A stretch of 44,131 bases of DNA from Actinomycetota bacterium. GTDB lineage: Bacteria > Actinomycetota > Acidimicrobiia > Acidimicrobiales > Ilumatobacteraceae. The notes beneath the pieces are model-generated. The model was not told the origin of the DNA, did not search any database, and saw only the letters and a program-made list of their open reading frames with translations. The DNA lies in contig VGAK01000015.1 of the NCBI GenBank assembly GCA_016870775.1, positions 1 through 44,131 on the forward strand. The letters are read 5' to 3'. Position numbers and translations under genes: made by a program. This document shows, piece by piece, positions 5,515 to 37,531 of this stretch. Each line of letters starts with the position of its first letter. Position 1 is the stretch's first letter.

Positions 5515-6909
5515 ATGGCCGATACACCTTGGTTGGGCGATGCGTGCTCGCTCGTCGAGGAATTCAGGACGGGGCGCCGGTCGCCCCGAGAGGAGATGCA
5601 AGCGACGCTCGACGCGACCGCGGCGAGTTCGCTGAATGCGGTCTCGTTCGTGGATCCCGAGCGCGCGCTCGCCGGGGCCGAGAAGGCCGACGTCTCGCTC
5701 CCCTTCGGCGGTGTTCCGCTCGGCGTCAAGGAGCTCGACATGGTCAGCGGGTGGCCCGACACCGGAGCCTCCCTCGTGTTCGCCGGCGACATCGCGACGG
5801 AGACCTCGATTCCGGTCGAGCGAATCGTCGGACGTGGTGGAGTCGTGCCGTTCGGTCTCACCACGGCCAGTGAGTTCGGTGGAGTGAACCTCACGCGCAC
5901 CCACCTGAACGGTGCAACCTCGAACCCGTGGAACCTCGCGCGCACCCCGGGCGGATCCTCGGGGGGCAGCGCGGCCGGTGTCGCCGGCGGGCTCTTCACC
6001 CTCGCCACCGGCGGCGATGGTGGCGGATCCATCCGCATCCCGGCCGGGTTCACCGGTCTCGTCGGGCTCAAGTCGACGTACGGCCGCATCCCGCGGGGAC
6101 CGAACGCGCAGTACGGCAACCTCACCGTCACGGTCGGGTGTCTCAGCCGGAGCGTGCGCGACACGGCGCGATGGTTCGACGCGGCCAACGGCCACGACGC
6201 GCGCGATCCGCTCTCGCTACCACGCGTCGAGGGATGGGAGGCGGCGCTCGGCTCGGTCCCCGTGCGGGGACTGAGAGTCGCGGTCGTCGACGACTGGGGT
6301 GGCGCGACGGTGTCTCCGGCGATGTGGCACGTGCTGCTCGGGGCCGCGGAGCACTTGGTGCGCGCGGCGGGGCTCGTGCGCATCGACGGTGTCGACACGA
6401 CCCTGCCGCGAATGGGCGCCGCATGGGCGATCAGCGGCAACCTCGGTCTGTCGGCTCTGCTCGGAGACAAGTGGCCCGCGTGCGCCGATCAACTGACCCC
6501 CGAGATGCGGGCGGGAATGGAGATGGCCGAGGGCCTCTACAACGCCGAGGCGCGCGGTCGTCTCGAGGAGAGGCGTGCACGTTTCAACGCACGCATGGCC
6601 GAGATATTCGACCAGGTCGATCTGGTGATCACGGCCTCTAATCCCGATGTCGCCTTCTCCGCCGAGGGACCGTTGCCATCGGAGTTCGGCGGCATCAAGG
6701 CGGGCGCGCGCAACAATGGTGTCCTCACGTTCCCCTGCAACCTCCACGGCAACCCAGGCATCTCCGTTCCCGCCGGCACCGTCGATGGCCTGCCGGTGGG
6801 CCTCCAGATCTTGGGGCCGCATTTCTCCGAGCAGATCCTCCTCGAGTTGGCCCTCGTGCTGGAGCGCGAGTGCCCGTGGCCGCTCGTGGCGCCGGGGGCC
6901 CCCGCGTGA
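5515..6909 (+). CDS. Amidase signature family hydrolase
   Basis: A 464-residue amidase-signature enzyme with the complete Ser-cisSer-Lys triad: Lys72 in GVPLGVKEL, the cis-Ser region GGSSGGS (146-152) and the nucleophile Ser172 in GGGSIRIP. Family members hydrolyse C-N bonds of amides or act as transamidase subunits; GatA is unlikely because no gatB or gatC lies beside it and the C-terminal half differs from GatA. The start is fixed by a TAGCGT box 7 bases upstream. The stop codon overlaps the GTG of the CoA-transferase gene (GTGA), so the two form an operon, suggesting stepwise catabolism: amide hydrolysis followed by CoA activation of the released acid. That link is inference. Confidence 0.92.
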   Translation: MADTPWLGDACSLVEEFRTGRRSPREEMQATLDATAASSLNAVSFVDPERALAGAEKADVSLPFGGVPLGVKELDMVSGWPDTGASLVFAGDIATETSIPVERIVGRGGVVPFGLTTASEFGGVNLTRTHLNGATSNPWNLARTPGGSSGGSAAGVAGGLFTLATGGDGGGSIRIPAGFTGLVGLKSTYGRIPRGPNAQYGNLTVTVGCLSRSVRDTARWFDAANGHDARDPLSLPRVEGWEAALGSVPVRGLRVAVVDDWGGATVSPAMWHVLLGAAEHLVRAAGLVRIDGVDTTLPRMGAAWAISGNLGLSALLGDKWPACADQLTPEMRAGMEMAEGLYNAEARGRLEERRARFNARMAEIFDQVDLVITASNPDVAFSAEGPLPSEFGGIKAGARNNGVLTFPCNLHGNPGISVPAGTVDGLPVGLQILGPHFSEQILLELALVLERECPWPLVAPGAPA

Positions 6910-8087
6910 CGTCGTCCGGCCCGCTCTCGGGCGTGAAGGTCGTGGACATGTCGGTGATGATCTCGGGACCGCTCTCGGCGATGATGCTCGCCGACCAGGG
7001 TGCCGATGTCGTCAAGGTGGAGTCCCCCGGAATCGGCGACATGATGCGGTTCCTCGGCAGTTCCAAGGGTGGAATGACGGGGATCTTCGCGCTCAACAAC
7101 CGCGGGAAGCGCTCGATCGGGATCAACCTGAAGTCCGACCGCGGCGGCGAGATCCTGCGAGCGCTCCTGTCCGATGCCGACGTGCTGATCCAGAACTTCC
7201 GGCCCGGCGCACTCGACAAGCTCGGCTTCGGCTACGAGAGCGTGCGCGCGATGAACCCGGGCATCGTCTACGTCTCGATCAGTGGCTTCGGCCAAGACGG
7301 GCCGCGCAGCGGACAACGTGTCTACGACAACATCATCCAGGCCGCGTCCGGACTCGCATCCGTGCAGACGGACCGCGCCACGAGTCGACCGCAGATCTTC
7401 CGCACCCTCGTCTGCGACAAGGTCACCTCGTACACAGTCGCCCAGGCCGTGACCGCCGCGCTGTTCGCGCGGGAGCGCGGTGCGGGTGGTCAACACGTCG
7501 AGGTCGCCATGCTGGATGCCGCGATCTCGTTCATGTGGCCCGACACGGCGATGGACGTGGCACTTCTCGACGATGACGTCACGCGCACGCCCACGATCGG
7601 CGAGAACTATGCCGCGCTCGAGCTGAGGGATGGTTTCGTTGCCGTGTCGGCGGTGTCCCAGCCCGAGTTCGAGGGCTACATGCGCGCCCTCAACGGGAGC
7701 CATCTGCTCGACGATCCTCGCTTCGCCGATGCCGGGGCCCGGTCGGTGAACGTTGCCGACCTGCGCACCGAGGTCAAGAAGCTCACCGATGCGATCACCG
7801 TCGAGGAGTTCCTCGCCAATGCCCTGGTCCACGATGTGCCCGCGAGCAGCATCAACACCCTCGTCTCGGCACCCGATGAACCCCAGGTGGTGCACAACGC
7901 GAGCTTCTTCAAGCGCGAGCACCCCGTGGCGGGTCGCATCCGCGAGGCACGTCATGCACCCCGTTTCCACGGCACTCCGACGGGTGTTGTGTCCCATGCA
8001 CCGATGCGTGGCGAGCACACCGACGAGATTCTCGCGGGTCTCGGCCTGGACCCCGCCGAGATCCGCGCCACCGACGCCGTCTTCTGA
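6906..8087 (+). CDS. Class III CoA-transferase (CaiB/BaiF family)
   Basis: A 393-residue protein beginning at GTG 6906, which overlaps the amidase stop. It shows the family III architecture: N-terminal GVKVVDMS...GPLSAMMLADQGADVVKVE, NNRGKRSIGINLK near 64-76, VLIQNFRPG near 93-101, the SISGFGQDGP loop near 124-133, and YD141 at the position expected for the catalytic Asp that forms the acyl-aspartyl anhydride. A frame upstream of 6906 is open but lies wholly inside the amidase gene. Family members transfer CoA between carboxylic acids (formyl-CoA/oxalate, carnitine, bile acid, mesaconyl substrates). Its partner amidase suggests the acceptor acid comes from an amide. Confidence 0.92.
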   Translation: MTSSGPLSGVKVVDMSVMISGPLSAMMLADQGADVVKVESPGIGDMMRFLGSSKGGMTGIFALNNRGKRSIGINLKSDRGGEILRALLSDADVLIQNFRPGALDKLGFGYESVRAMNPGIVYVSISGFGQDGPRSGQRVYDNIIQAASGLASVQTDRATSRPQIFRTLVCDKVTSYTVAQAVTAALFARERGAGGQHVEVAMLDAAISFMWPDTAMDVALLDDDVTRTPTIGENYAALELRDGFVAVSAVSQPEFEGYMRALNGSHLLDDPRFADAGARSVNVADLRTEVKKLTDAITVEEFLANALVHDVPASSINTLVSAPDEPQVVHNASFFKREHPVAGRIREARHAPRFHGTPTGVVSHAPMRGEHTDEILAGLGLDPAEIRATDAVF

Positions 8088-9509: not shown

Positions 9510-10622
9510 TCAGCCCGCGACGACCACGAGATCGTGGTTCGCCGCGTTCAGGGCTCGTGGTCCATCGGTGGTCGCCACCACGATGTCCTCGAGTCGCATG
9601 CCCCACTTGCCCGGGATGTAGATGCCGGGCTCGACGCTGTAGGCATGGCCCGGCTCGATCGGCGTCGCGTTGCCCCTGACCATGTAGGGATCCTCGTGCT
9701 CCTCCATGCCGATGCCGTGGCCGGTGCGGTGCACGAACCACTCGCCGTACCCGGCGGCGTCGATCACCGAACGAGCGGCGGCGTCGACCCCCTCGCATGG
9801 CGTGCCGATCGTGCCGGCACGCACGCCCGCTGACTGTGCCTCGTGGAGAACGGCGTAGGCCTCGGCGATGTCGGCGGGCACCTCGCCGATGTGCACGCAC
9901 CGGGTGATGTCGCTGCAGTAGCCATCCATCGTCCCACCGAAGTCGCAGAGCACGATCTCTCCCCCACGGATCACCCTGCTCCCCGCGTGGTGGTGCGGGC
10001 TCGCCGCGTTCTCGCCGGCGGCAACGATCGCAAAGTTCACCTTGTCGTGGCCCTCGGCGATCAACCGCGCACCGATGTCGGCCGAGACGTCGGCTTCGGT
10101 GCGACCCACCAACCTGATCTCGCCGCTGTGGAGCTGCGCCGCGACACGGTCCGCTGCGGCGCCAGCGGCGGCCAGCACCGCGATCTCGGCGGCGTCCTTC
10201 CGCGAGCGCAACGGCTCCATCACCGTCACCGACCTTGCCCACACGGTGGAGGGCCGGTGCGCGATCAGATCGACCAGGAACCGCGACCACATCCGGTCGC
10301 CGACCGCGACTGTGGTGGCCGACCCGAGCACCCGGTGCGCGATCGCGATGGGGTCGTCCGTCTCGTTCCACGGCAGCAAGGAGAACACCGACGGCATCTC
10401 GACGACGCGCGGTGCCTCGAGTCGCGGGATCAGCATCGTGGCATCACCCTCGCGCGGCACGACCAGCAGTGTGAGCCGCTCGAGCGGCATGGCCTGGTAT
10501 CCCGTGAGATACGGCAGGTCGTGGCCGACCGACAGGATCAGTGAATCCACCCCCCTCGCCGACATCTCCTTGCGCACCCGGGCGAGACGATCCACATACA
10601 CGCTCTCGGCAGCCAACTTCAT
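9510..10622 (-). CDS. Xaa-Pro aminopeptidase / M24 metallopeptidase
   Basis: A 370-residue M24 'pita-bread' peptidase. N-terminal creatinase-like domain about 8-135, catalytic domain about 140-365. The five metal ligands are all present: Asp227 and Asp238 (CDFGG...SDITR), His302 (HRTGHGIG), Glu331 (SVEPGIY) and Glu345 (RLEDIV). The enzyme is expected to release N-terminal residues preceding proline, or to be a dipeptidase (PepQ-like), in the cytosol. Its ATG overlaps the stop of the LipB-LipA gene by four bases (ATGA), so translation is coupled. Placement of a proline peptidase directly behind lipoate genes is probably only operon hitch-hiking. Confidence 0.92.
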   Translation of the reverse strand: MKLAAESVYVDRLARVRKEMSARGVDSLILSVGHDLPYLTGYQAMPLERLTLLVVPREGDATMLIPRLEAPRVVEMPSVFSLLPWNETDDPIAIAHRVLGSATTVAVGDRMWSRFLVDLIAHRPSTVWARSVTVMEPLRSRKDAAEIAVLAAAGAAADRVAAQLHSGEIRLVGRTEADVSADIGARLIAEGHDKVNFAIVAAGENAASPHHHAGSRVIRGGEIVLCDFGGTMDGYCSDITRCVHIGEVPADIAEAYAVLHEAQSAGVRAGTIGTPCEGVDAAARSVIDAAGYGEWFVHRTGHGIGMEEHEDPYMVRGNATPIEPGHAYSVEPGIYIPGKWGMRLEDIVVATTDGPRALNAANHDLVVVAG

Positions 10623-12313
10623 CGTTCTCCTCCTCGTGGACCGCCCAGTGTGGCAGGAACGGCGCCAATTGTGACTGGCACGGCGCGCTCAGCCGCCTCG
10701 CGGGCGTGGTAACTCGACCGGGTCAGCGGACTCGACTCGACGTGGGCGATGCCCATCGCCTCACCCCTGTCCTTGTACATCTCGAACACCGACGGCTCGA
10801 CCCACCGCGCCACGGGCAGGTGGTTGGTGGTCGGTCGCAGGTACTGGCCGATGGTCACGATCTCGCACCCGAGGGCCGCGAGATCCGCGAGTGTTCCCAG
10901 CACCTCGTCGTCGGTCTCGCCCATCCCCACGATGATGCCCGATTTGACGGTCAGGCCCGCGCGCTTCGCGCGGGCGAGCACCGAGAGACTGCGTGCGTAT
11001 CCCGCCGACGGCCGCACCGCGCGTTGCAAGCGCGCCACCGTCTCGATGTTGTGGTTGAAGACATCGGGTCGCGCCCCGATCAACAGATCGAGGCCTTCCC
11101 CGCCCTTGGCATCCGAGACCAACGTCTCGACCCTGATCGCGGGGTCGAGGTCGCGGATCGCCGCCACGCACCCTGCGACATGTGCCATTCCACCGTCGAG
11201 GAGATCGTCGCGCGCCACCATGGTGAGCACGACGTGGGCGAGTCCCATCCTTCGCACTGCCTCGGCCACGCGCACCGGCTCATCGGAGTCTGGAGCGCCG
11301 GGCTTGCGCGTGTCCACGAGGCAGAACCCGCACGCCCGCGTGCAGCGCTCGCCGAGCACCATGAACGTGGCCGTGCCGTCGCTCCAGCACTCCGAGATGT
11401 TGGGACAACCCGCCTCCTCGCAGACCGTGACCAACGACAACTCCGACAATGTCCGCTTGAGTGCCATCACTTCCTCGCCGTGGCGGACCCTCGGCCTGAT
11501 CCAGTCGGGTTTGCGCTCCGACAACGGGATGGCACCCTCGACGCCTGCGCGCGCGAGTCGGCCAAGCAGACGCACCGGCTCGCCCGGTCCGGCCCCGCGC
11601 GAGAAAGCCGAGAGGTCGTCGGGTGACGCGCGCCATGCGACGTCCTGGCGCTCGAACGCCCCCGAGGTCCACTCACGTGCCGCGCGCTCCACCACAACGT
11701 CGACGACCTGCCTCATCGCCACGTCGATCCCCTCCTCGGCGAGCGATGTGACGGGGTGCTCGGCGATTCCGCAGGGCACGATGTGGTCGCGCATGTAGGT
11801 GAGGTCGGTCGAGACGTTCAGTGCGAAGCCGTGCATCGTGCGACCCCGGCCGACACGCACCCCGATGGCCGCGATCTTGCGCGGTCTCGTCGCCGCATCG
11901 AGCCACACGCCCGGGTACCCCTCGAGGCGCCCCGCATGCGGCAGGCCGAGCGCGGCGAGCACCCCGATGATCACGTCCTCGAGCGAGCGCACGTATCCGG
12001 GTGAGTCAACCGGACCAGTCCCGCCGTGTGTGCCGTCGAGTGCGAGCAACGGATAGCCGACGAGTTGACCGGGACCGTGGTAGGTCACGTCGCCGCCGCG
12101 CATGACGGGCACGAGCCGCGCGCCGACCGTCGCCGGGTCGCACCTCAGGTTCGTGGCGAGATCGGCCGACGGGCCGTGAGTGAACACGTGCGGATGCTCG
12201 AGCAACAACAGATGGTTTCCGGTGCCGTTGTGGAAGACCGCCTCCTGCACGGCGAGTGCCTCCTCGTAGGGAACGGTTCCGAGCCACCGTGCCCGCAGCA
12301 ACCGGTCGTCCAT
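10619..12313 (-). CDS. LipB-LipA fusion: octanoyltransferase joined to lipoyl synthase
   Basis: One uninterrupted 564-residue reading frame. Residues about 1-228 are octanoyl-ACP:protein transferase (LipB) with RGGDVTYHGPGQLVGYPL (72-89), Lys146 in PRKIAAIGV and catalytic Cys181 in VPCGI. A short linker (about 229-262) leads into lipoyl synthase (LipA), which keeps its usual start ERKPDWIRP (266-274), the auxiliary-cluster cysteines 298/303/309, the radical-SAM cysteines 324/328/331 (CTRACGFC) and the C-terminal RSSY (532-535). So both steps of endogenous lipoylation, octanoyl transfer and sulfur insertion, lie in one polypeptide. Start: ATG 12313, 5 bases after the E2 stop with GGAGG upstream. 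A GTG at 11575 could let LipA be made separately. Downstream overlap (ATGA) couples the peptidase gene. Confidence 0.95.
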   Translation of the reverse strand: MDDRLLRARWLGTVPYEEALAVQEAVFHNGTGNHLLLLEHPHVFTHGPSADLATNLRCDPATVGARLVPVMRGGDVTYHGPGQLVGYPLLALDGTHGGTGPVDSPGYVRSLEDVIIGVLAALGLPHAGRLEGYPGVWLDAATRPRKIAAIGVRVGRGRTMHGFALNVSTDLTYMRDHIVPCGIAEHPVTSLAEEGIDVAMRQVVDVVVERAAREWTSGAFERQDVAWRASPDDLSAFSRGAGPGEPVRLLGRLARAGVEGAIPLSERKPDWIRPRVRHGEEVMALKRTLSELSLVTVCEEAGCPNISECWSDGTATFMVLGERCTRACGFCLVDTRKPGAPDSDEPVRVAEAVRRMGLAHVVLTMVARDDLLDGGMAHVAGCVAAIRDLDPAIRVETLVSDAKGGEGLDLLIGARPDVFNHNIETVARLQRAVRPSAGYARSLSVLARAKRAGLTVKSGIIVGMGETDDEVLGTLADLAALGCEIVTIGQYLRPTTNHLPVARWVEPSVFEMYKDRGEAMGIAHVESSPLTRSSYHAREAAERAVPVTIGAVPATLGGPRGGER

Positions 12314-12318
12314 CGCGA

Positions 12319-13668
12319 TCAGACCTCCGATGACCAGTCCCTGGTCTCGAGGATGTCCCTCACCTTGACGAGGAACCCGGCCGCATACGCGCCGTCGAAG
12401 GCGCGATGGTCCCACGACATGGCCAGATTGCCGACCGGATGGATCGCGATCGACTCACCCGCGGGGGTCTGGACCACGACCGGCTTCTTCGTGATCGCAT
12501 CCGTCGACAGGATGGCGACCTGGGGTTGGTTGATGATCGGCACCGTCAGCACCGATCCCGCGGAGCCGTTGTTGGAGATCGTGAAGGTGCCGCCTGCGAT
12601 CTCATCGGGCGAGAGGCGCTTGGCGCGCGCGCGACCAGCGAGGTCGTTTATCTCGCGGGCGATCGCGCGCAGGCGCTTGCCCTCGGCTTCGCGCACCACC
12701 GGCACGAGCAGACCCCGGAAGTCGAGATCGACCGCGATGCCCAAGTCCACGAACCTGTGCACGATCAATTCGTTGTCACCCATCGAGGCGTTCATGTGGG
12801 GGAACTCCGCGATCGCATCGACGACAGCGCGTGCGATGAAGGGCAGGTACGTCAGCGAGAAACCCTCCGCCGCACGGAACTCATCCTTGATGCGACCACG
12901 CACACTGTCGACATTGGTGTAGTCGACCTCGACAACGCTCAAAGCGTGCGGGCTGGTGGCCTTGCTCGTGACCATGTGGGAGCCGGTGGCCTGACGAATA
13001 CGTGAGAGCGCGACAACTTCGTCGCGTCCGCCGGGCACCGCCTTGGGCGCAGCGGGTTGCGGAGCTCTCGGAGCAGGCGCCGGAGCAGGCGCGGCCGCCG
13101 GAGCAGCCACAGGCGCAGGCGCAGACACAGGAGCAGCCGGTACTGCGACCGAACGACCGCCACCGCGCTCGAGAACGGCGAGCACGTCATCGCGTGTGAT
13201 GCGTCCGCCGGGGCCGGTGCCGGTGATCGACGCGGGATCAAGTCCGTTCTCGGCGATCATCTTGCGCACGAGGGGTGACAACACAACCGATGCGCCGGGA
13301 GTCGAGGCGACCGGCGCCGGAACAGCCGCCGGAGCAGGGGCGGGCGCAGGTGCGGGAGCCGCCACAGGGGCGGGCGCAGGTGCGGGAGCCGCCACAGGGG
13401 CGGGGGGTGCAACAGGTGCCGCGGCAGGAGCTGCTCCCTCACCGACAACAGCGATCACGGCCCCCACCGGGACGGTGTCGCCCTCTTGGGCGCGGATCTC
13501 GAGGAGGATTCCCGCGATGGGCGACGGGACTTCGGTGTCGACTTTGTCGGTCGACACCTCGAACAACGGCTCGTCGACTCCGACCTTTTCCCCCACCCTC
13601 TTGAACCAGCGCGTGATCGTTCCCTCAGTGACCGTCTCGCCGAGTTGGGGAAGGGTGATCTCTGCCAT
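12319..13668 (-). CDS. Dihydrolipoamide acyltransferase, E2 component of 2-oxoacid dehydrogenase
   Basis: A 449-residue E2 core protein. One lipoyl domain (1-78) with the lipoylated Lys42 in STDKVDTEV; a long Ala-Pro linker (80-126); a peripheral subunit-binding domain (about 130-167) that binds E1/E3; a second Ala-Pro linker (175-212); and the trimer-forming catalytic domain (215-449) with active-site His421 and Asp425 in DHRAFDG. It accepts the acyl group from E1 and passes it to CoA. Start is ATG 13668, which gives the standard MAEITLPQLGE N-terminus; the frame is open far upstream but that part lies in lpdA. Neighbours lpdA (38 bases upstream) and lipBA (5 bases downstream) supply E3 and lipoylation. 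The homodimeric E1 at 23.4 kb is a plausible partner; actinobacterial E2 may also serve 2-oxoglutarate dehydrogenase. Confidence 0.95.
   Translation of the reverse strand: MAEITLPQLGETVTEGTITRWFKRVGEKVGVDEPLFEVSTDKVDTEVPSPIAGILLEIRAQEGDTVPVGAVIAVVGEGAAPAAAPVAPPAPVAAPAPAPAPVAAPAPAPAPAPAAVPAPVASTPGASVVLSPLVRKMIAENGLDPASITGTGPGGRITRDDVLAVLERGGGRSVAVPAAPVSAPAPVAAPAAAPAPAPAPRAPQPAAPKAVPGGRDEVVALSRIRQATGSHMVTSKATSPHALSVVEVDYTNVDSVRGRIKDEFRAAEGFSLTYLPFIARAVVDAIAEFPHMNASMGDNELIVHRFVDLGIAVDLDFRGLLVPVVREAEGKRLRAIAREINDLAGRARAKRLSPDEIAGGTFTISNNGSAGSVLTVPIINQPQVAILSTDAITKKPVVVQTPAGESIAIHPVGNLAMSWDHRAFDGAYAAGFLVKVRDILETRDWSSEV
13341..13400 (-). repeat. Two perfect 30-base tandem repeats in the E2 linker
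   Basis: Bases 13341-13370 are repeated exactly at 13371-13400. Each unit encodes ten residues of the Ala/Pro/Val linker between the lipoyl and subunit-binding domains. Identity at the DNA level suggests recent slippage, so linker length may vary between strains. Confidence 0.95.
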
Positions 13669-13706: not shown

Positions 13707-15107
13707 CTAGGCGTTGATGCTCCGGCCGGTCAGTGACATCACTGTCTCGCCGAACAATTCGGTGAGGCTCGGGTGCGGCTGGATGAAGTGGGCGATCTCG
13801 TCCACGGTGGCCTCCCAGTTCACGGCCAGGTATCCGCCAGAGAGCTGTTCTGTCACCCACGGCCCGACCATGTGGACGCCCAGCACCTGCCCGGCGGAAC
13901 CGTCGGCGTTCTTTTTCGCGATGATCTTCACCAGCCCGTCGATCTCGCCGAGGATCTGGGCGCGGCTGTTCGCGCGGAACTGGTGCTTGGCCACGACCAC
14001 GTCGTTGCCCGCGGCCTTGGCTGCTTCCTCGCCCGGTCCGGCCCACGCGACCTCGGGGCTGCAGTAGATGGCCCACGGCACGCGGTCGTAGTCCACGGGC
14101 ACCGCCGATTCACCGAGGATCTGTCGCACCACCAGTATCGCCTCGGCATAGGCGACGTGGGCCAATTGGGGCGTGTTGATGAGGTCGCCGATCGCCCAGA
14201 CACCGGCGACCGAAGTGCGGCACAGAGCGTCGACATCGATGAAACCACGGTCGCTGACGGCGACCTTGGTGGCCGCCAGGCCGAGCTGGTCGGGGAACGG
14301 GCGCCGCCCGACCGACACGATGACCGCATCGACCTCGAGCGACTCGCCGTCACCGAAGCAGACCACAGTCGAGCCCTTGCCCGTCGGGTTGTGCCCAGTC
14401 ACCGAGACGCCGGTCTTGATCGCGATTTTCTTCTTCTGGAACGAGCGCACGACGACGCCGGCGACGTCGGCGTCGAGCCCGGGGAGGATCTTGGGCAATC
14501 CCTCGAGGATCGTCACTTCCGCGCCGAGGTCGGCGAACGCCGAGGCGAACTCGCACCCGATCGCGCCACCCCCGATGACCGCGATGCGCGCCGGAATGCG
14601 GTCGAGCATCAGCACCTCGTCGCTCGTCATGATCGGCCCACCCGGCTCGAAACCGGGCACCGTGCGCGGCACGCTGCCGGCTGCCAGCAGGACGTTCGTG
14701 CCCCGCACCTGCGAGATCGCACCGTCCATCGCTGTGACGGTCACCGAGTTGTCGGGATTCAGCGACCCGACTCCCAGCATGTAGGTGACCTTCTTGGCCT
14801 TGGTGAGGCCGGTGAGACCCTTCACGAGGCCGTCGACGATCTTCTGCTTGCGCGCCTGGGCAACCGAGAACTCGATCGGCCCGAGTGTCACCGAGATACC
14901 GAAGTCCCCCGCGTGCTCGGCGTGACGACGGGCCGCTGCCGTCTCGAGGAATGCCTTGGCGGGGATGCAACCCCGGTTCAGGCAGGTGCCACCGAGGGTG
15001 TCCTTCTCGATGAGTGCCACCCTCAAACCGGCGGATGCCCCGTAGAAGGCAGCCGCATACCCGCCGGGGCCCCCACCAATGACGACGAGATCGAAATCAT
15101 CGGCCAT
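13707..15107 (-). CDS. lpdA: Dihydrolipoyl dehydrogenase, E3
   Basis: A 466-residue FAD/NAD disulfide oxidoreductase. FAD-binding GGGPGG (11-16), redox disulfide Cys42-Cys47 in GGTCLNRGCIP, NAD-binding GGGAIG near 178-183, FAD-binding AIGD near 310, and the catalytic dyad His445-Glu450 in HPSLTE. It reoxidises the dihydrolipoyl group of E2 with NAD+. First gene of the operon lpdA-E2-lipBA-peptidase-membrane protein, with AGGAG about 8 bases before the ATG. Length and all active-site residues are normal. Confidence 0.97.
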   Translation of the reverse strand: MADDFDLVVIGGGPGGYAAAFYGASAGLRVALIEKDTLGGTCLNRGCIPAKAFLETAAARRHAEHAGDFGISVTLGPIEFSVAQARKQKIVDGLVKGLTGLTKAKKVTYMLGVGSLNPDNSVTVTAMDGAISQVRGTNVLLAAGSVPRTVPGFEPGGPIMTSDEVLMLDRIPARIAVIGGGAIGCEFASAFADLGAEVTILEGLPKILPGLDADVAGVVVRSFQKKKIAIKTGVSVTGHNPTGKGSTVVCFGDGESLEVDAVIVSVGRRPFPDQLGLAATKVAVSDRGFIDVDALCRTSVAGVWAIGDLINTPQLAHVAYAEAILVVRQILGESAVPVDYDRVPWAIYCSPEVAWAGPGEEAAKAAGNDVVVAKHQFRANSRAQILGEIDGLVKIIAKKNADGSAGQVLGVHMVGPWVTEQLSGGYLAVNWEATVDEIAHFIQPHPSLTELFGETVMSLTGRSINA

Positions 15108-15775: not shown

Positions 15776-16672
15776 ATGAAGATCCTCGTCACAGGCGCCT
15801 CCGGCCTCATCGGCTCCGCTCTCGTTCCCGCCCTCGAGACGAGGGGACACTCGGTCGTGCGCACCGTGCGCCGCACCCCGGCATCGGGCTCCGAGATCGC
15901 GTGGGATCCCGCGGCGGGCACGATCGCCCCGGGTGCGCTCGAGGGCGTCGATGCGGTCATCCATCTGGCCGGCGCCGGGATCGGCGACAAGCGTTGGACC
16001 GACTCCTACAAGCGCGAGATTCTCGAGAGCCGCACGCGCAGCACCGCCCTCCTCGCAGAGGCCATGGCGTCTGCGGCCGTCGCGCCGCGCGTGTTCCTCT
16101 CGGGGTCGGCGATCGGCATCTACGGACCGCGTGGCGACGAGACGCTCGACGAATCGGCGACCCAGGGCCAGGGATTCCTCGCCGATGTCTGTCGCGCGTG
16201 GGAGGACGCCGCCGCACCCGCTGTCGGTGCGGGCGTCCGCACCGTGTTCCTGCGCACCGGGATCGTTCTCTCCCCCGCCGGCGGCGCGCTGAAGAAGCAG
16301 TTGCCCCTGTTCCGACTCGGACTCGGTGGCAAGTTCGGCAGCGGACGCCAGTGGCAGAGCTGGATCTCGATGGACGACGAGGTCGCCGCGATCATCCATC
16401 TCCTCGACTGCGATGCACGCGGTGCCGTGAACCTCACAGCACCCGAGCCGGTCACCAACGCCGAGTTCACCAGGGTGCTCGCCACGGTGTTGTCCCGCCC
16501 TGCCGTGCTCCCGATCCCCTCGTTCGGACCCAGGGCGCTGCTCGGAGGCGAACTGGCCGACGCCCTGTTGTTCACCGGTCAGCGCGTCCTGCCCGCCGCT
16601 CTCACCGCCGACGGCTACGTGTTCCGCCACCCCACCCTCGAGAGCGCATTGCGCTCGCTGCTCGGCAAGTGA
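15776..16672 (+). CDS. TIGR01777-type NAD-dependent epimerase (SDR39U1/YfcH-like)
   Basis: A 298-residue extended short-chain dehydrogenase. N-terminal Rossmann motif GASGLIG (7-13), followed by the family's GVDAVIHLAGAGIGDKRW block, a GSAIGIYG segment replacing the usual catalytic Tyr region, and a C-terminal DUF1731 tail (FGPRALLGGELADALLFTGQRV and on). Members are widespread but their substrates are unknown. Start ATG 15776 gives the conserved MKILVTGASG; an open frame upstream is not needed. Its stop overlaps the GTG of the FAD oxidoreductase (GTGA), giving an operon with that gene and the SRPBCC protein. Confidence 0.92.
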   Translation: MKILVTGASGLIGSALVPALETRGHSVVRTVRRTPASGSEIAWDPAAGTIAPGALEGVDAVIHLAGAGIGDKRWTDSYKREILESRTRSTALLAEAMASAAVAPRVFLSGSAIGIYGPRGDETLDESATQGQGFLADVCRAWEDAAAPAVGAGVRTVFLRTGIVLSPAGGALKKQLPLFRLGLGGKFGSGRQWQSWISMDDEVAAIIHLLDCDARGAVNLTAPEPVTNAEFTRVLATVLSRPAVLPIPSFGPRALLGGELADALLFTGQRVLPAALTADGYVFRHPTLESALRSLLGK

Positions 16673-33851: not shown

Positions 33852-34478
33852 ATGGGCGCCACGCTCGGCACGCTCCACTATTTCGATCACAACCTCGAGG
33901 TTCACAGGGTCGTCGTCGGTCCCTACGCGAACAACGTCTTCGTCGTGCGCTGCAAGCACACCGGTGACGCCGTCCTGATCGACGCGGCCAACGAGCACGA
34001 ACGCCTGCTCGATCTCTGTCGCGCACTCGGGGTGCGAAGGGTGCTCGAGACCCACGGCCACTTCGACCACATCCAGGCGATCCCGGCCATGCGCGAGGCC
34101 GGATACGAGGTTGCCGTGACGCCGGCCGATGCCGGCATGCTCGGTGATCTCGGGTACGACGTCTACATCGACGACGCACAGGTGATCGAGGTGGGTCGGC
34201 TGCGTCTGCATGCGATCCACAATCCGGGGCACACTCCCGGGTCTGTCTCGTTCAAGGTCGAGGACGCACCGCTTCTCTTCACCGGTGACACCCTCTTCCC
34301 CGGCGGCCCGGGGGCCACGCACTTCCCCGGCGGTGATTTTGCGACCATCATCGAGTCGATCGACTCGCGCCTCTTCACCTTCCCCGGCAACACCGTGGTG
34401 CTCCCCGGTCATGGCGCCGACACGGCGATCTCGGTGGAGAGACCGCATCTCGACGAATGGATCGCCCGTGGATGGTGA
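33852..34478 (+). CDS. Metallo-beta-lactamase-fold hydrolase (glyoxalase II-like)
   Basis: A 208-residue protein with the complete dinuclear metal signature: His68-x-His70-x-Asp72-His73 (THGHFDHI), His127 (NPGHTPGS), Asp146 (FTGDTLF) and His187 (LPGHG). The order matches hydroxyacylglutathione hydrolase-like or thiol-ester hydrolases of actinobacteria. ATG 33852 chosen because an upstream ATG frame crosses the gap and the conserved HYFDHN...VVGPYANNVFVV begins soon after. The next gene (desaturase) starts within about 20 bases of its stop. Confidence 0.9.
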   Translation: MGATLGTLHYFDHNLEVHRVVVGPYANNVFVVRCKHTGDAVLIDAANEHERLLDLCRALGVRRVLETHGHFDHIQAIPAMREAGYEVAVTPADAGMLGDLGYDVYIDDAQVIEVGRLRLHAIHNPGHTPGSVSFKVEDAPLLFTGDTLFPGGPGATHFPGGDFATIIESIDSRLFTFPGNTVVLPGHGADTAISVERPHLDEWIARGW

Positions 34479-34497
34479 GGGCGTGCGGCTCGGCGGA

Positions 34498-35463
34498 ATG
34501 GCCCCGGCAGCCTCGTCGCTGCCCGTGGTCCGCGACAACCCCTGGGTCGGCACCGACGGGCGGGCCCTGCCCGAGGCGCGCGCCGACCTGCGACGCATCC
34601 CGTCCCTTCGCAATGCCTGGAGCGTCGCATGGCTCTACGGACAGACGATCCTGATCCTGGCCGCCGCCACGTGGATGGACCACCTGATCGCGTGGATGGC
34701 GGTGTTCCTCCTCATGGGTCGCACGCATGCCCAGTTCGCCTCGCTCATGCACGAGGCCGCGCACCGTCTGCTGTTCTCACACAAGGGAGCGAACGACCTC
34801 GTCGGCAACTGGGTGCTCGGCTACCCTGTGATGACCTCCACGCCGGCGTACCGGCGTGTGCACATGGCGCACCACCGCCAGGAGTTCGGCCCCGACGAAC
34901 CCGATATTCCCCTCTATGCGAACTACCCGATCGCGCCGTCGAGCCTGCGACGCAAGCTGGTGCGCGACCTCACCGCCCGGACAGGGGCGAAATTGTTCGT
35001 GAATCAGATGCGCGGGTTCTCCTCGTCCGATGCGCGTGTGCGCCGCACCCTCTTGAAGATGGTGCTCGTGCAGGCGGTGGTCGTGGCGGCGTTCACCCTC
35101 CTCGGTGCATGGTGGATGTATCCGGTGATGTGGGTGCTGCCGCACCTCACCCTGTGGCGAGTGATCAATCGGCTCCGCTCGATCGCGGAACATGGTGGAT
35201 TGCGTGCCGATCGTGACCGTCGCGTCGCGACCCACTCGGTCACCCAGCACCCCCTCGCGCGCTTCTATTTCGTGCCGTACAAGATCGGCTACCACCTCGC
35301 GCACCACGTGGACGCGGGCGTCCCGTTCCGGAACCTTCCCCGGTACCACCGCATGCTCCGTGAGTCGGGGTACGTCGACGACACGTCCGAGTACCCCTCG
35401 TACCGGGCCATCTGGCGCGCACTCGCGGCTGGTCCCGAACCCGCCACGGCCGCCACCGCCTGA
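34498..35463 (+). CDS. Membrane fatty acid desaturase-family protein
   Basis: A 321-residue membrane di-iron enzyme. Histidine boxes: HEAAH (85-89), HMAHH (122-126) and HLAHH (266-270), plus His232 in EHGG. Hydrophobic stretches flank them (about 47-75, 100-115, 186-215). This layout matches fatty-acyl desaturases and related hydroxylases acting at the cytoplasmic face of the membrane. ATG 34498 is used; GTG 34483 with GAGG just before it is an alternative. It starts just after the MBL-fold gene and ends 67 bases before sufC, separated by the suf operator. A second, truncated desaturase of a different branch lies at 42.5-43.0 kb. Confidence 0.88.
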   Translation: MAPAASSLPVVRDNPWVGTDGRALPEARADLRRIPSLRNAWSVAWLYGQTILILAAATWMDHLIAWMAVFLLMGRTHAQFASLMHEAAHRLLFSHKGANDLVGNWVLGYPVMTSTPAYRRVHMAHHRQEFGPDEPDIPLYANYPIAPSSLRRKLVRDLTARTGAKLFVNQMRGFSSSDARVRRTLLKMVLVQAVVVAAFTLLGAWWMYPVMWVLPHLTLWRVINRLRSIAEHGGLRADRDRRVATHSVTQHPLARFYFVPYKIGYHLAHHVDAGVPFRNLPRYHRMLRESGYVDDTSEYPSYRAIWRALAAGPEPATAATA

Positions 35464-35523: not shown

Positions 35524-35530
35524 CATGTCC

Positions 35531-36295
35531 GTGAGCGCTCTGTTCCGCATCGACAACCTCCACGCGCGCCCAGTCGCCGACGACGAGGCCGACTCCCCCT
35601 CGGAGATTCTCCGGGGGGTGGATCTGGTCATCGCACCCGGCGAGGTGCACGCGATCATGGGCCCGAACGGCTGCGGCAAATCGACATTGGCGAGCACGCT
35701 GCTCGCCTCCCCCGAGTACGAGGTGACCGAGGGACGGATCGTGTTCAGGGACGAGGACATCACCGACTGGTCGACCGATGTGCGCGCAAAGGCCGGCATG
35801 TTCCTCGCCTTCCAGTACCCCCAGGAGATAGCCGGTGTCTCGGTGATCCAGTTCCTGCGCCAGGCACTCTCGGCGCGCAAGGGCGTTGATCTCTCGGTGC
35901 TCGAATTGAGGCTCGCTGCGATGGATTGGATGAAGCGCCTCGGCATGGATTCGTCCTTCGTCGATCGCTACTTGAACGAGGGCTTCTCCGGCGGTGAGAA
36001 GAAGCGCAATGAGATCATGCAGATGGCCATTCTCGAGCCCGAGTTCGCAGTCCTCGACGAGACCGACTCCGGACTCGACATCGACGCGCTGCGGATCGTC
36101 GCGAAGGGGATCCGAGAGGTCCGCACCGATCGTCCCTCGCTCGGGATCCTCCTCATCACGCACTACCAGCGCCTGCTGGACGAGCTCCGGCCCGACCACG
36201 TGCACATCATGGTCGATGGCCGCATCGTGCGCAGCGGTGGCATGGAAGTGGCGGCCGAGCTCGAGAAGAACGGCTACGAGGCGTACAGGGACTGA
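35531..36295 (+). CDS. sufC: Fe-S cluster assembly ATPase SufC
   Basis: About 254 residues. Walker A GPNGCGKST (about 44-52 from this start), Q-loop FQYPQE, the SufC-specific signature FSGGEKKRNEI, Walker B and D-loop FAVLDETDSGLDIDAL, and H-loop THYQRLL. SufC is the soluble ATPase that works with SufB and SufD to assemble Fe-S clusters. An insertion of about 13 residues (PVADDEADSPSEI) follows the first strand. Start: GTG 35531 is favoured by the TAGGAT box; ATG 35525 is two codons upstream. sufS follows after 3 bases. No sufB or sufD lies next to it, although these usually precede sufC. Confidence 0.95.
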   Translation: MSALFRIDNLHARPVADDEADSPSEILRGVDLVIAPGEVHAIMGPNGCGKSTLASTLLASPEYEVTEGRIVFRDEDITDWSTDVRAKAGMFLAFQYPQEIAGVSVIQFLRQALSARKGVDLSVLELRLAAMDWMKRLGMDSSFVDRYLNEGFSGGEKKRNEIMQMAILEPEFAVLDETDSGLDIDALRIVAKGIREVRTDRPSLGILLITHYQRLLDELRPDHVHIMVDGRIVRSGGMEVAAELEKNGYEAYRD

Positions 36296-36298
36296 CCG

Positions 36299-37531
36299 AT
36301 GGCACACGACCTCTCCTCGGTCCGTGCGGACTTCCCCGTCCTCGCGGAGTTGATCGACGGCAAGCCCCTCGTCTATCTGGACTCGGCGAACACCTCGCAG
36401 AAGCCGCATGCGGTGATCGATGCGATGTCGTGCTTCCTCGAGCACTCCTACGGACCCACCAACCGCAGCGCATACCGGCTCGCCGCAGATGCGACCGACG
36501 CCTACGAGGGCGCACGAGTAAAGGTCGCCCGTTTCGTGAACGCGGCCAAGCCCCACGAGATCGTCTTCACCAAGAACGCCACCGAGTCGTTGAACCTCGT
36601 GGCGCGAGCGTGGGGTTCGACGAACCTCTCGAGCGGTGATGCGATCGTGCTCACCCACATGGAGCACCACGCCAACATCGTGCCTTGGCAGATGATGGCT
36701 GCCGAGCGCGGCTTCGAGATCCGCTGGGTGCCCCTCACCGCCGACGGACTCCTCGACCTCACCGACCTCGACCGCCTCCTGGACGGTGCAAAGGCCCTCT
36801 CGTTCACCGCGATGTCGAACGTGCTGGGCACGATCAACCCGGTCCGGGAGCTGTGCGCCGCCGCGCACGCGCACGGCGCCATTGCCGTCGTCGACGGGTG
36901 CCAGTCGGTGCCCCACATGCCCACCGACGTGCGCGAATGGGATGCAGACTTCGTCGCCTTCTCGTCCCACAAGATGGTCGGCCCCTCGGGGATCGGTCTG
37001 TTGTGGGGTCGCGAGAGCCTGCTCGAGTCGATGCCCCCGTTCCTCGGCGGCGGCAGCATGATCTCGGATGTGCGCCTCGACGGCTTCGAGTGCGCCGAGC
37101 TGCCGGCCAAGTTCGAGGCGGGCACTCAACCCATCGTCGAGGCCGTCGGCCTCGGGGCCGCGGTCGACTATCTCTCGGCGCTCGGCATGGACAACGTGCG
37201 TGCCCACGAGGTGGCGCTCACCGTCGAGGCGCTCGACAAACTCAAGGGCAGGTTCGGCGACGACATCGAGATCCACGGGTCCCCCGACGCCTCGGTGCGC
37301 GGCGCCACGATCAGTTTCGCCTTCCGCGACGTGCACCCCCACGACGTGAGCCAGGTGCTCGATCAGCACAATGTCTGCGTGCGGGCCGGCCACCACTGCG
37401 CCAAGCCGCTGATGCGCCTGTTGGGTGCGAACGCCACGGTGCGCGCGAGCTTCTACCTCTACAACACCTCCGACGAGATCGACACCCTGTGCGACGCACT
37501 CGGCGAGACAGCCGAATTCTTCTCCGCCTGA
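36299..37531 (+). CDS. sufS: Cysteine desulfurase SufS
   Basis: A 410-residue class V aminotransferase-fold enzyme. PLP-binding Lys225 in FSSHKMVGPSG, His123 in MEHHANIVPW, and catalytic Cys367 in RAGHHCAKPLM carry the group II (SufS) pattern. It takes sulfur from cysteine and passes it to SufU. Normal length, all active residues intact. Starts 3 bases after sufC and ends 28 bases before sufU, clearly one transcript. Confidence 0.96.
   Translation: MAHDLSSVRADFPVLAELIDGKPLVYLDSANTSQKPHAVIDAMSCFLEHSYGPTNRSAYRLAADATDAYEGARVKVARFVNAAKPHEIVFTKNATESLNLVARAWGSTNLSSGDAIVLTHMEHHANIVPWQMMAAERGFEIRWVPLTADGLLDLTDLDRLLDGAKALSFTAMSNVLGTINPVRELCAAAHAHGAIAVVDGCQSVPHMPTDVREWDADFVAFSSHKMVGPSGIGLLWGRESLLESMPPFLGGGSMISDVRLDGFECAELPAKFEAGTQPIVEAVGLGAAVDYLSALGMDNVRAHEVALTVEALDKLKGRFGDDIEIHGSPDASVRGATISFAFRDVHPHDVSQVLDQHNVCVRAGHHCAKPLMRLLGANATVRASFYLYNTSDEIDTLCDALGETAEFFSA

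Follow-up and report, generated by a model that had tools for sequence, protein, structure and literature searches.

Octanoyltransferase (LipB) and lipoyl synthase (LipA) are normally separate proteins, and a locus in which the two appear to run together therefore raises the question of whether lipoate assembly can be entrusted to a single polypeptide, or whether two ordinary genes have simply been made to look like one. The locus considered here lies in a window of 44,131 nucleotides (the whole stretch of DNA that was analysed), which belongs to a draft genome in 44 contigs that is 80% complete. The initial annotation had proposed that LipB and LipA share one stop-free frame of 564 codons, and that frame was indeed found (Table 1), with both family models above their cut-offs: TIGR00214 (lipB) scores 124.7 bits against a cut-off of 83.55, and TIGR00510 (lipA) scores 345.6 bits against 310.25 over residues 266-543. 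Pfam LplA-B_cat covers residues 16-209 with 115 bits. The LIAS N-terminal domain (PF16881) aligns over profile positions 59-96 alone, at 25.1 versus 27 bits, and the inter-domain linker occupies its place. The residues to which catalysis had been assigned (K146 and C181 in LipB, C298/303/309, C324/328/331 and RSSY 532-535 in LipA) all stand at the positions given for them, and the LipA part thus holds the CX4CX5C auxiliary-cluster cysteines, the CX3CX2C radical-SAM cysteines and the RSSY sequence. Upstream of its ATG, the open frame continues into the E2 gene as far as GTG 12415.

Table 1. Features at and around the lipB-lipA locus, in positions of the window
Feature	Position	Strand	Remarks
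M24 family peptidase	9510..10622	-	downstream of the fusion gene; its ATG overlaps the fusion stop (ATGA)
lipB-lipA fusion gene	10619..12313	-	ATG 12313 to stop TGA 10619-10621; 564 codons plus stop
LipA (lipoyl synthase, radical SAM) domain	10685..11518	-	residues 266-543; auxiliary-cluster C298/303/309, radical-SAM C324/328/331, RSSY 532-535
Inter-domain linker	11519..11686	-	residues 210-265; partly conserved segments RxDVAW, FSRG, RLxxAGV
GTG codon 247, possible internal start	11573..11575	-	start codon not conserved
LipB (octanoyltransferase) domain	11687..12268	-	residues 16-209; catalytic K146 codon 11876-11878, C181 codon 11771-11773
E2 (dihydrolipoyl acyltransferase)	12319..13668	-	449 aa; best match SucB_Actino, 413.8 bits, just under the cut-off of 423.45; one lipoyl domain (TDKVD)
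GGAGG, Shine-Dalgarno-like word	12324..12328	-	10 nt before ATG 12313, within the end of the E2 gene
E3 (dihydrolipoyl dehydrogenase)	13707..15107	-	TIGR01350, above cut-off
TIGR01777 (YfcH) oxidoreductase	15776..16672	+	

The draft state of the genome is what could make one think of an artefact, in which an assembly error or a frameshift has joined two genes. A sequencing frameshift is disfavoured because all four same-genus genomes listed (G091, G153, G295 and G358) give the same match in a single frame with no stop. Furthermore, the frame across LipB and LipA is free of stops in 157 of the 161 genomes of the class whose DNA was read, including single-contig genomes such as G002, G014 and G022, and an artefactual joint can be set aside as vanishingly improbable. 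The class is taken to be Acidimicrobiia from the lineages of 23 named relatives (L005–L027), of which 11 are Acidimicrobiia, 6 are Actinomycetes and 6 carry no class. The two-domain architecture, whose taxonomic spread had been proposed as a check, is class-wide in the genomes read. The 161 genomes were picked from the matches that the search listed, and families that looked weak or split were included deliberately, so that they are not a random sample; a search with the window protein matched 363 of 395 class genomes and gave no match in the other 32. Among the named relatives, both domains share one stop-free frame in 22 of 23, the exception (L011) having one stop, inside the LipB part. The named loci and the 161 genomes may overlap in the organisms they represent, and the two counts are kept separate rather than summed.

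The departures from the pattern are few and of several kinds. LipB and LipA lie in different frames in G215 (locus L226), G356 has an in-frame TAG within the LipB part, and in G211 and G279 the fusion is broken or cut by contig edges. Two of the 157 fusions (L144 and L220) run into a contig end, and for six the script located no start codon close to where one was expected. One genome, G052, carries a second, separate LipB/LipA pair (L224, L225) besides its fused copy; the LipA of this pair falls outside the class clade, which points to contamination or transfer. Two contigs titled Bifidobacterium breve (L005 and L008), which count among the 6 relatives given as Actinomycetes, hold fusions whose domains share 61-73% identity with those of the window protein, and their titles look mislabelled.

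Within the 157 aligned fusions, the catalytic apparatus of both halves is retained. K146, C181, the R72-G73-G74 loop, H79 and all six LipA cysteines are invariant (157/157), and RSS is present in 156, with one gap. The column of the RSSY tyrosine is looser, with Tyr in 141, His in 12, Phe in 3 and one gap. A first set of motif counts by regular expression had given lower values for four of six patterns (97, 140, 148 and 141 of 157); judged by the aligned columns, these patterns were too narrow, and the counts were discarded.

The stretch that joins the two domains is far more variable in length. Measured from the position of residue 209 to that of residue 268, the linker runs from 29 to 179 residues with a median of 61 in the 157 fusions, and the eight shortest have 29-36 residues. 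Its coding character was examined by pooled pN/pS, which came to 0.246 for LipB, 0.341 for the linker and 0.168 for LipA in the 60 closest pairs out of 142 that exceed 72% identity; these pairs share genomes, and no significance is claimed for the values. By this measure the linker evolves as protein, under purifying selection, if less constrained than the two domains that flank it. Short segments recur in it, detected by regular expression among the 157 fusions as RxDV.W in 73, F[S/T]RG in 70, RLxxAGV in 92 and an LPGEP-like sequence in 31, and the linkers of some lineages have none of the four. A stretch with F[S/T]RG followed by RLLxxG is also found in a divergent branch of the class (L120 and L122).

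These properties of the linker bear on a second alternative, that a separate LipA is made in addition to the fusion, or even in its place, from an internal start such as the GTG at 11575, which the initial annotation had entered as a caveat. The codon is in frame, and at its position in the 59 genomes where it could be located, window included, 29 have GTG and 2 have TTG. The same position reads GTT, GTC or GTA in 19 of the 59, CTG in a further 6 and other codons in 3, and even the four same-genus relatives are divided, two having GTG and two GTT. In the window, no Shine-Dalgarno-like word stands 4-17 nt ahead of the GTG. More generally, such a word together with a start codon occurs in the 60 codons that precede the LipA core in 71 of the 157 fusions, at places that are scattered from one fusion to the next; the start chosen for the whole gene has such a word in 83 of 157, and the script preferred starts of this kind. 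With these counts, the second of which is biased by the script, the Shine-Dalgarno test is weak evidence against internal starts. Codon turnover, together with the purifying selection on the linker upstream of codon 247, weighs more than that test, and some lineages have linkers of no more than about 30 residues. The GTG thus finds no support as a conserved feature, and a separate LipA from an internal start is judged improbable, even if any single species might initiate internally.

The position of the fusion gene is as regular as its frame. The locus had been described as lying behind E2 and E3 genes, and this arrangement is strongly supported and class-wide. In the window, a gap of 5 nt separates the E2 stop from ATG 12313. 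Across the class, at least 400 nt of upstream sequence are available for 155 of the 157 fusions, and 148 of these have E2 directly upstream, in the sense that its frame stops no further than 60 nt into the fusion and no more than 400 nt ahead of the fusion start. The E2 frame overlaps the fusion start in 78 of these 148, and the commonest spacing is −4. Of the seven fusions without an upstream E2, three have E3 within 154 nt and four have neither; in L116, L119 and L149 (genomes G016, G010 and G047) the nearest recognised upstream gene is E3, not E2, at 19-154 nt.

Elsewhere in the window genome, neither a second LipA nor a full-length LipB was found; because the genome is 80% complete, such a copy could be missing from the assembly. 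A second LipA-like match proved to be RimO, and a second LplA-B_cat match, on contig C3, is partial and weak and was given no name by NCBIfam at 1e-8. Biotin/lipoyl domains were searched for as well, with four matches: the E2 adjacent to the fusion, one GcvH and two others. The GcvH lies on another contig (C4) than the fusion, and its presence there makes it probable that the adjacent E2 is not the sole substrate of the enzyme. The window also encodes SufC (35525-36292, + strand) and SufS (36299-37528, + strand), at a distance of about 23 kb from the fusion gene; they are relevant to LipA as functions in Fe-S cluster assembly and sulfur supply, and the frame just upstream of SufC (34210-35460) matches a fatty acid desaturase. 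An amidase (5515-6909, + strand) and a CoA-transferase of family III (6870-8087, + strand) would share 40 nt, provided that the second begins at its listed GTG.

How the two genes came to be joined can be approached through relatives outside the class. A search of the phylum, class members included, matched 317 of 396 genomes, and among the matches listed every out-of-class row that spans both domains contains stops. No fusion was found in the 29 Actinomycetota genomes read outside the class (0/29), which were chosen for spanning matches, for long open frames or as further examples. Seven of their loci (L248–L254) have lipB and lipA as separate frames, four (L260–L263) show LipA alone in the fetched stretch, and the remaining 18 (L279–L296) are without a fusion, 9 of them having a separate lipB in the stretch; over all 29, lipB is present as a separate frame within the stretch in 16 and was not seen in the stretch in 13. 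The order of genes in some split relatives is nonetheless that of the fusion loci. L059 and L066 have E2–TIGR01777–lipB–lipA, and L248–L252 have E2–lipB–lipA, so that the neighbours and their order resemble those of the fusion whereas the genes remain separate. The arrangement in Mycobacterium tuberculosis is also E2–TIGR01777–lipB–lipA.

In trees of 86 LipA and 75 LipB domains, the 44 class fusions fall on one side of a branch, whose support is 93/97 for LipA and a weak 27/85 for LipB; L226, L034 and L046 were left out of the second tree run. The first, quick trees had placed the frame-split class member L226 among the fusions for LipA, and had required 2 changes for the fused class rows with LipA and 3 with LipB. 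In the simplest history, neighbouring genes fused once in an ancestor of the class and the joint was seldom broken afterwards: most likely, a lipB and a lipA gene that lay side by side behind E2 would have been joined in that ancestor and kept so since.

The class is not the sole place where this joint occurs. Single-frame LipB–LipA proteins were detected in at least 7 of the 247 genomes searched in Desulfobacterota (Thermodesulfobacteriota in NCBI ranks), a lower bound, as further matches have open frames of about 490-750 aa; the search gave a match in 150 of the 247. The named loci L036, L049 and L050 carry such a protein as well, so that the fusions comprise L036, L040, L049, L050 and L265-L270; L036, whose title places it under Myxococcota, groups with L040 in the tree. 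Domain order and the single frame are the same as in the class fusions, and linkers are short in the four that were inspected. These proteins form a clade of their own (support 100/88 for LipA and 100/99 for LipB), and a single clade that also takes in the class fusions can be rejected for LipA (p-AU 0.011) but not for LipB (0.17). The trees thus suggest that the Desulfobacterota fusion probably arose independently. In two gammaproteobacterial loci (L034 and L046), lipB and lipA also lie in one stop-free frame, each with an internal Met before LipA; these are possibly further fusions, or possibly read-through neighbours.

What such a protein would do is suggested by its residues. Because both catalytic sets are complete, the best reading is a bifunctional single-protein LipB–LipA enzyme for lipoate assembly, and we consider this very probable, as far as sequence comparison can carry the point. 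In the N-terminal LipB domain, Cys181 would receive octanoate from acyl carrier protein, and the octanoyl group would then pass to the lysine of the E2 lipoyl domain, and probably to that of GcvH as well; the C-terminal LipA domain would afterwards add two sulfurs to this chain while it is bound to the protein. One protein product would accordingly be expected in the cell, with catalysis by both of its domains. Proximity may bring benefits of its own: possible ones are a fixed 1:1 dosage of the two activities, translational coupling to E2 and a higher local concentration of octanoyl-E2 near LipA. A hand-off of octanoyl-E2 from one domain to the other (channelling) is plausible.

Any such benefit has to be set against a plainer account, in which the joint was fixed by chance when the lipB stop was lost in a tight operon, and the two domains act as they would if separate. 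This account concerns the benefit alone and is compatible with a bifunctional single protein. It is a quite realistic possibility: linkers of 29 to 179 residues are what would be expected of a loose tether, split relatives already have lipB and lipA adjoining behind E2, and the GcvH encoded on a different contig is probably a substrate too. Against it, separation of the domains is rare, with different frames in 1 of the 161 class genomes read, a separate fusion probably arose in Desulfobacterota, and the linker segments recur across the class, each in part of the genomes. Those segments invite a bolder version of the bifunctional reading, in which the protein is a dedicated lipoylation machine whose linker docks the swinging lipoyl domain of E2 in the interval from octanoyl transfer to sulfur insertion, so that octanoyl-E2 is passed on without release. 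The candidate docking segments are F[S/T]RGxG and, downstream of it, a sequence like RLxxAGV or RLLxxG; they are found in both main branches of the class, each in part of the 157 fusions; we regard this version as doubtful.

The bifunctional reading matters beyond this locus. Whether LipB and LipA act sequentially on a bound lipoyl domain or independently of each other is hard to test with separate enzymes, and a fusion that is class-wide and occurs in another phylum is a natural construct whose parts can be cut apart, exchanged and assayed. Annotation tools that name proteins by a single domain may list the fusion as LipA or LipB alone. A description of a LipB–LipA fusion was not found among the titles and abstract beginnings searched, and the exact phrase occurred in no paper; InterPro or UniProt may list the architecture. 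The fusions mentioned in the available part of one survey (PMC10332631) are others, and the part seen of a second paper (PMC3917532) does not mention this one.

A close counterpart among named protein families is NF053790 (NCBIfam LplA_LipA_fuse, bifunctional lipoate-protein ligase/lipoyl synthase), in which, by its name, an attachment enzyme is also fused to LipA. The window protein was rejected as a member, since its score, which comes from the LipA half alone (positions 330-605), is 328.5 against a cut-off of 800, and the cut-off was reached in 0 of 11 genomes. Unlike the LplA-LipA of that family, the window protein has an N-terminal part that is LipB by TIGR00214. As for the separate enzymes, LipB is described as having a catalytic Cys/Lys dyad (Cys176 and Lys142 in M. 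tuberculosis) plus an RGG loop, and as forming an octanoyl thioester on its Cys before transfer to the lipoyl lysine (PMC9307952); LipA is likewise described as adding two sulfurs that come from its auxiliary cluster (PMC12246082). Solved structures of separate chains, 1w66 for LipB and 5exi and 4u0o for LipA, match the two halves of the window protein separately. The fusion thus shares with separate LipB and LipA the dyad and the cluster cysteines named for them, and differs in that a linker joins the two into a single polypeptide.
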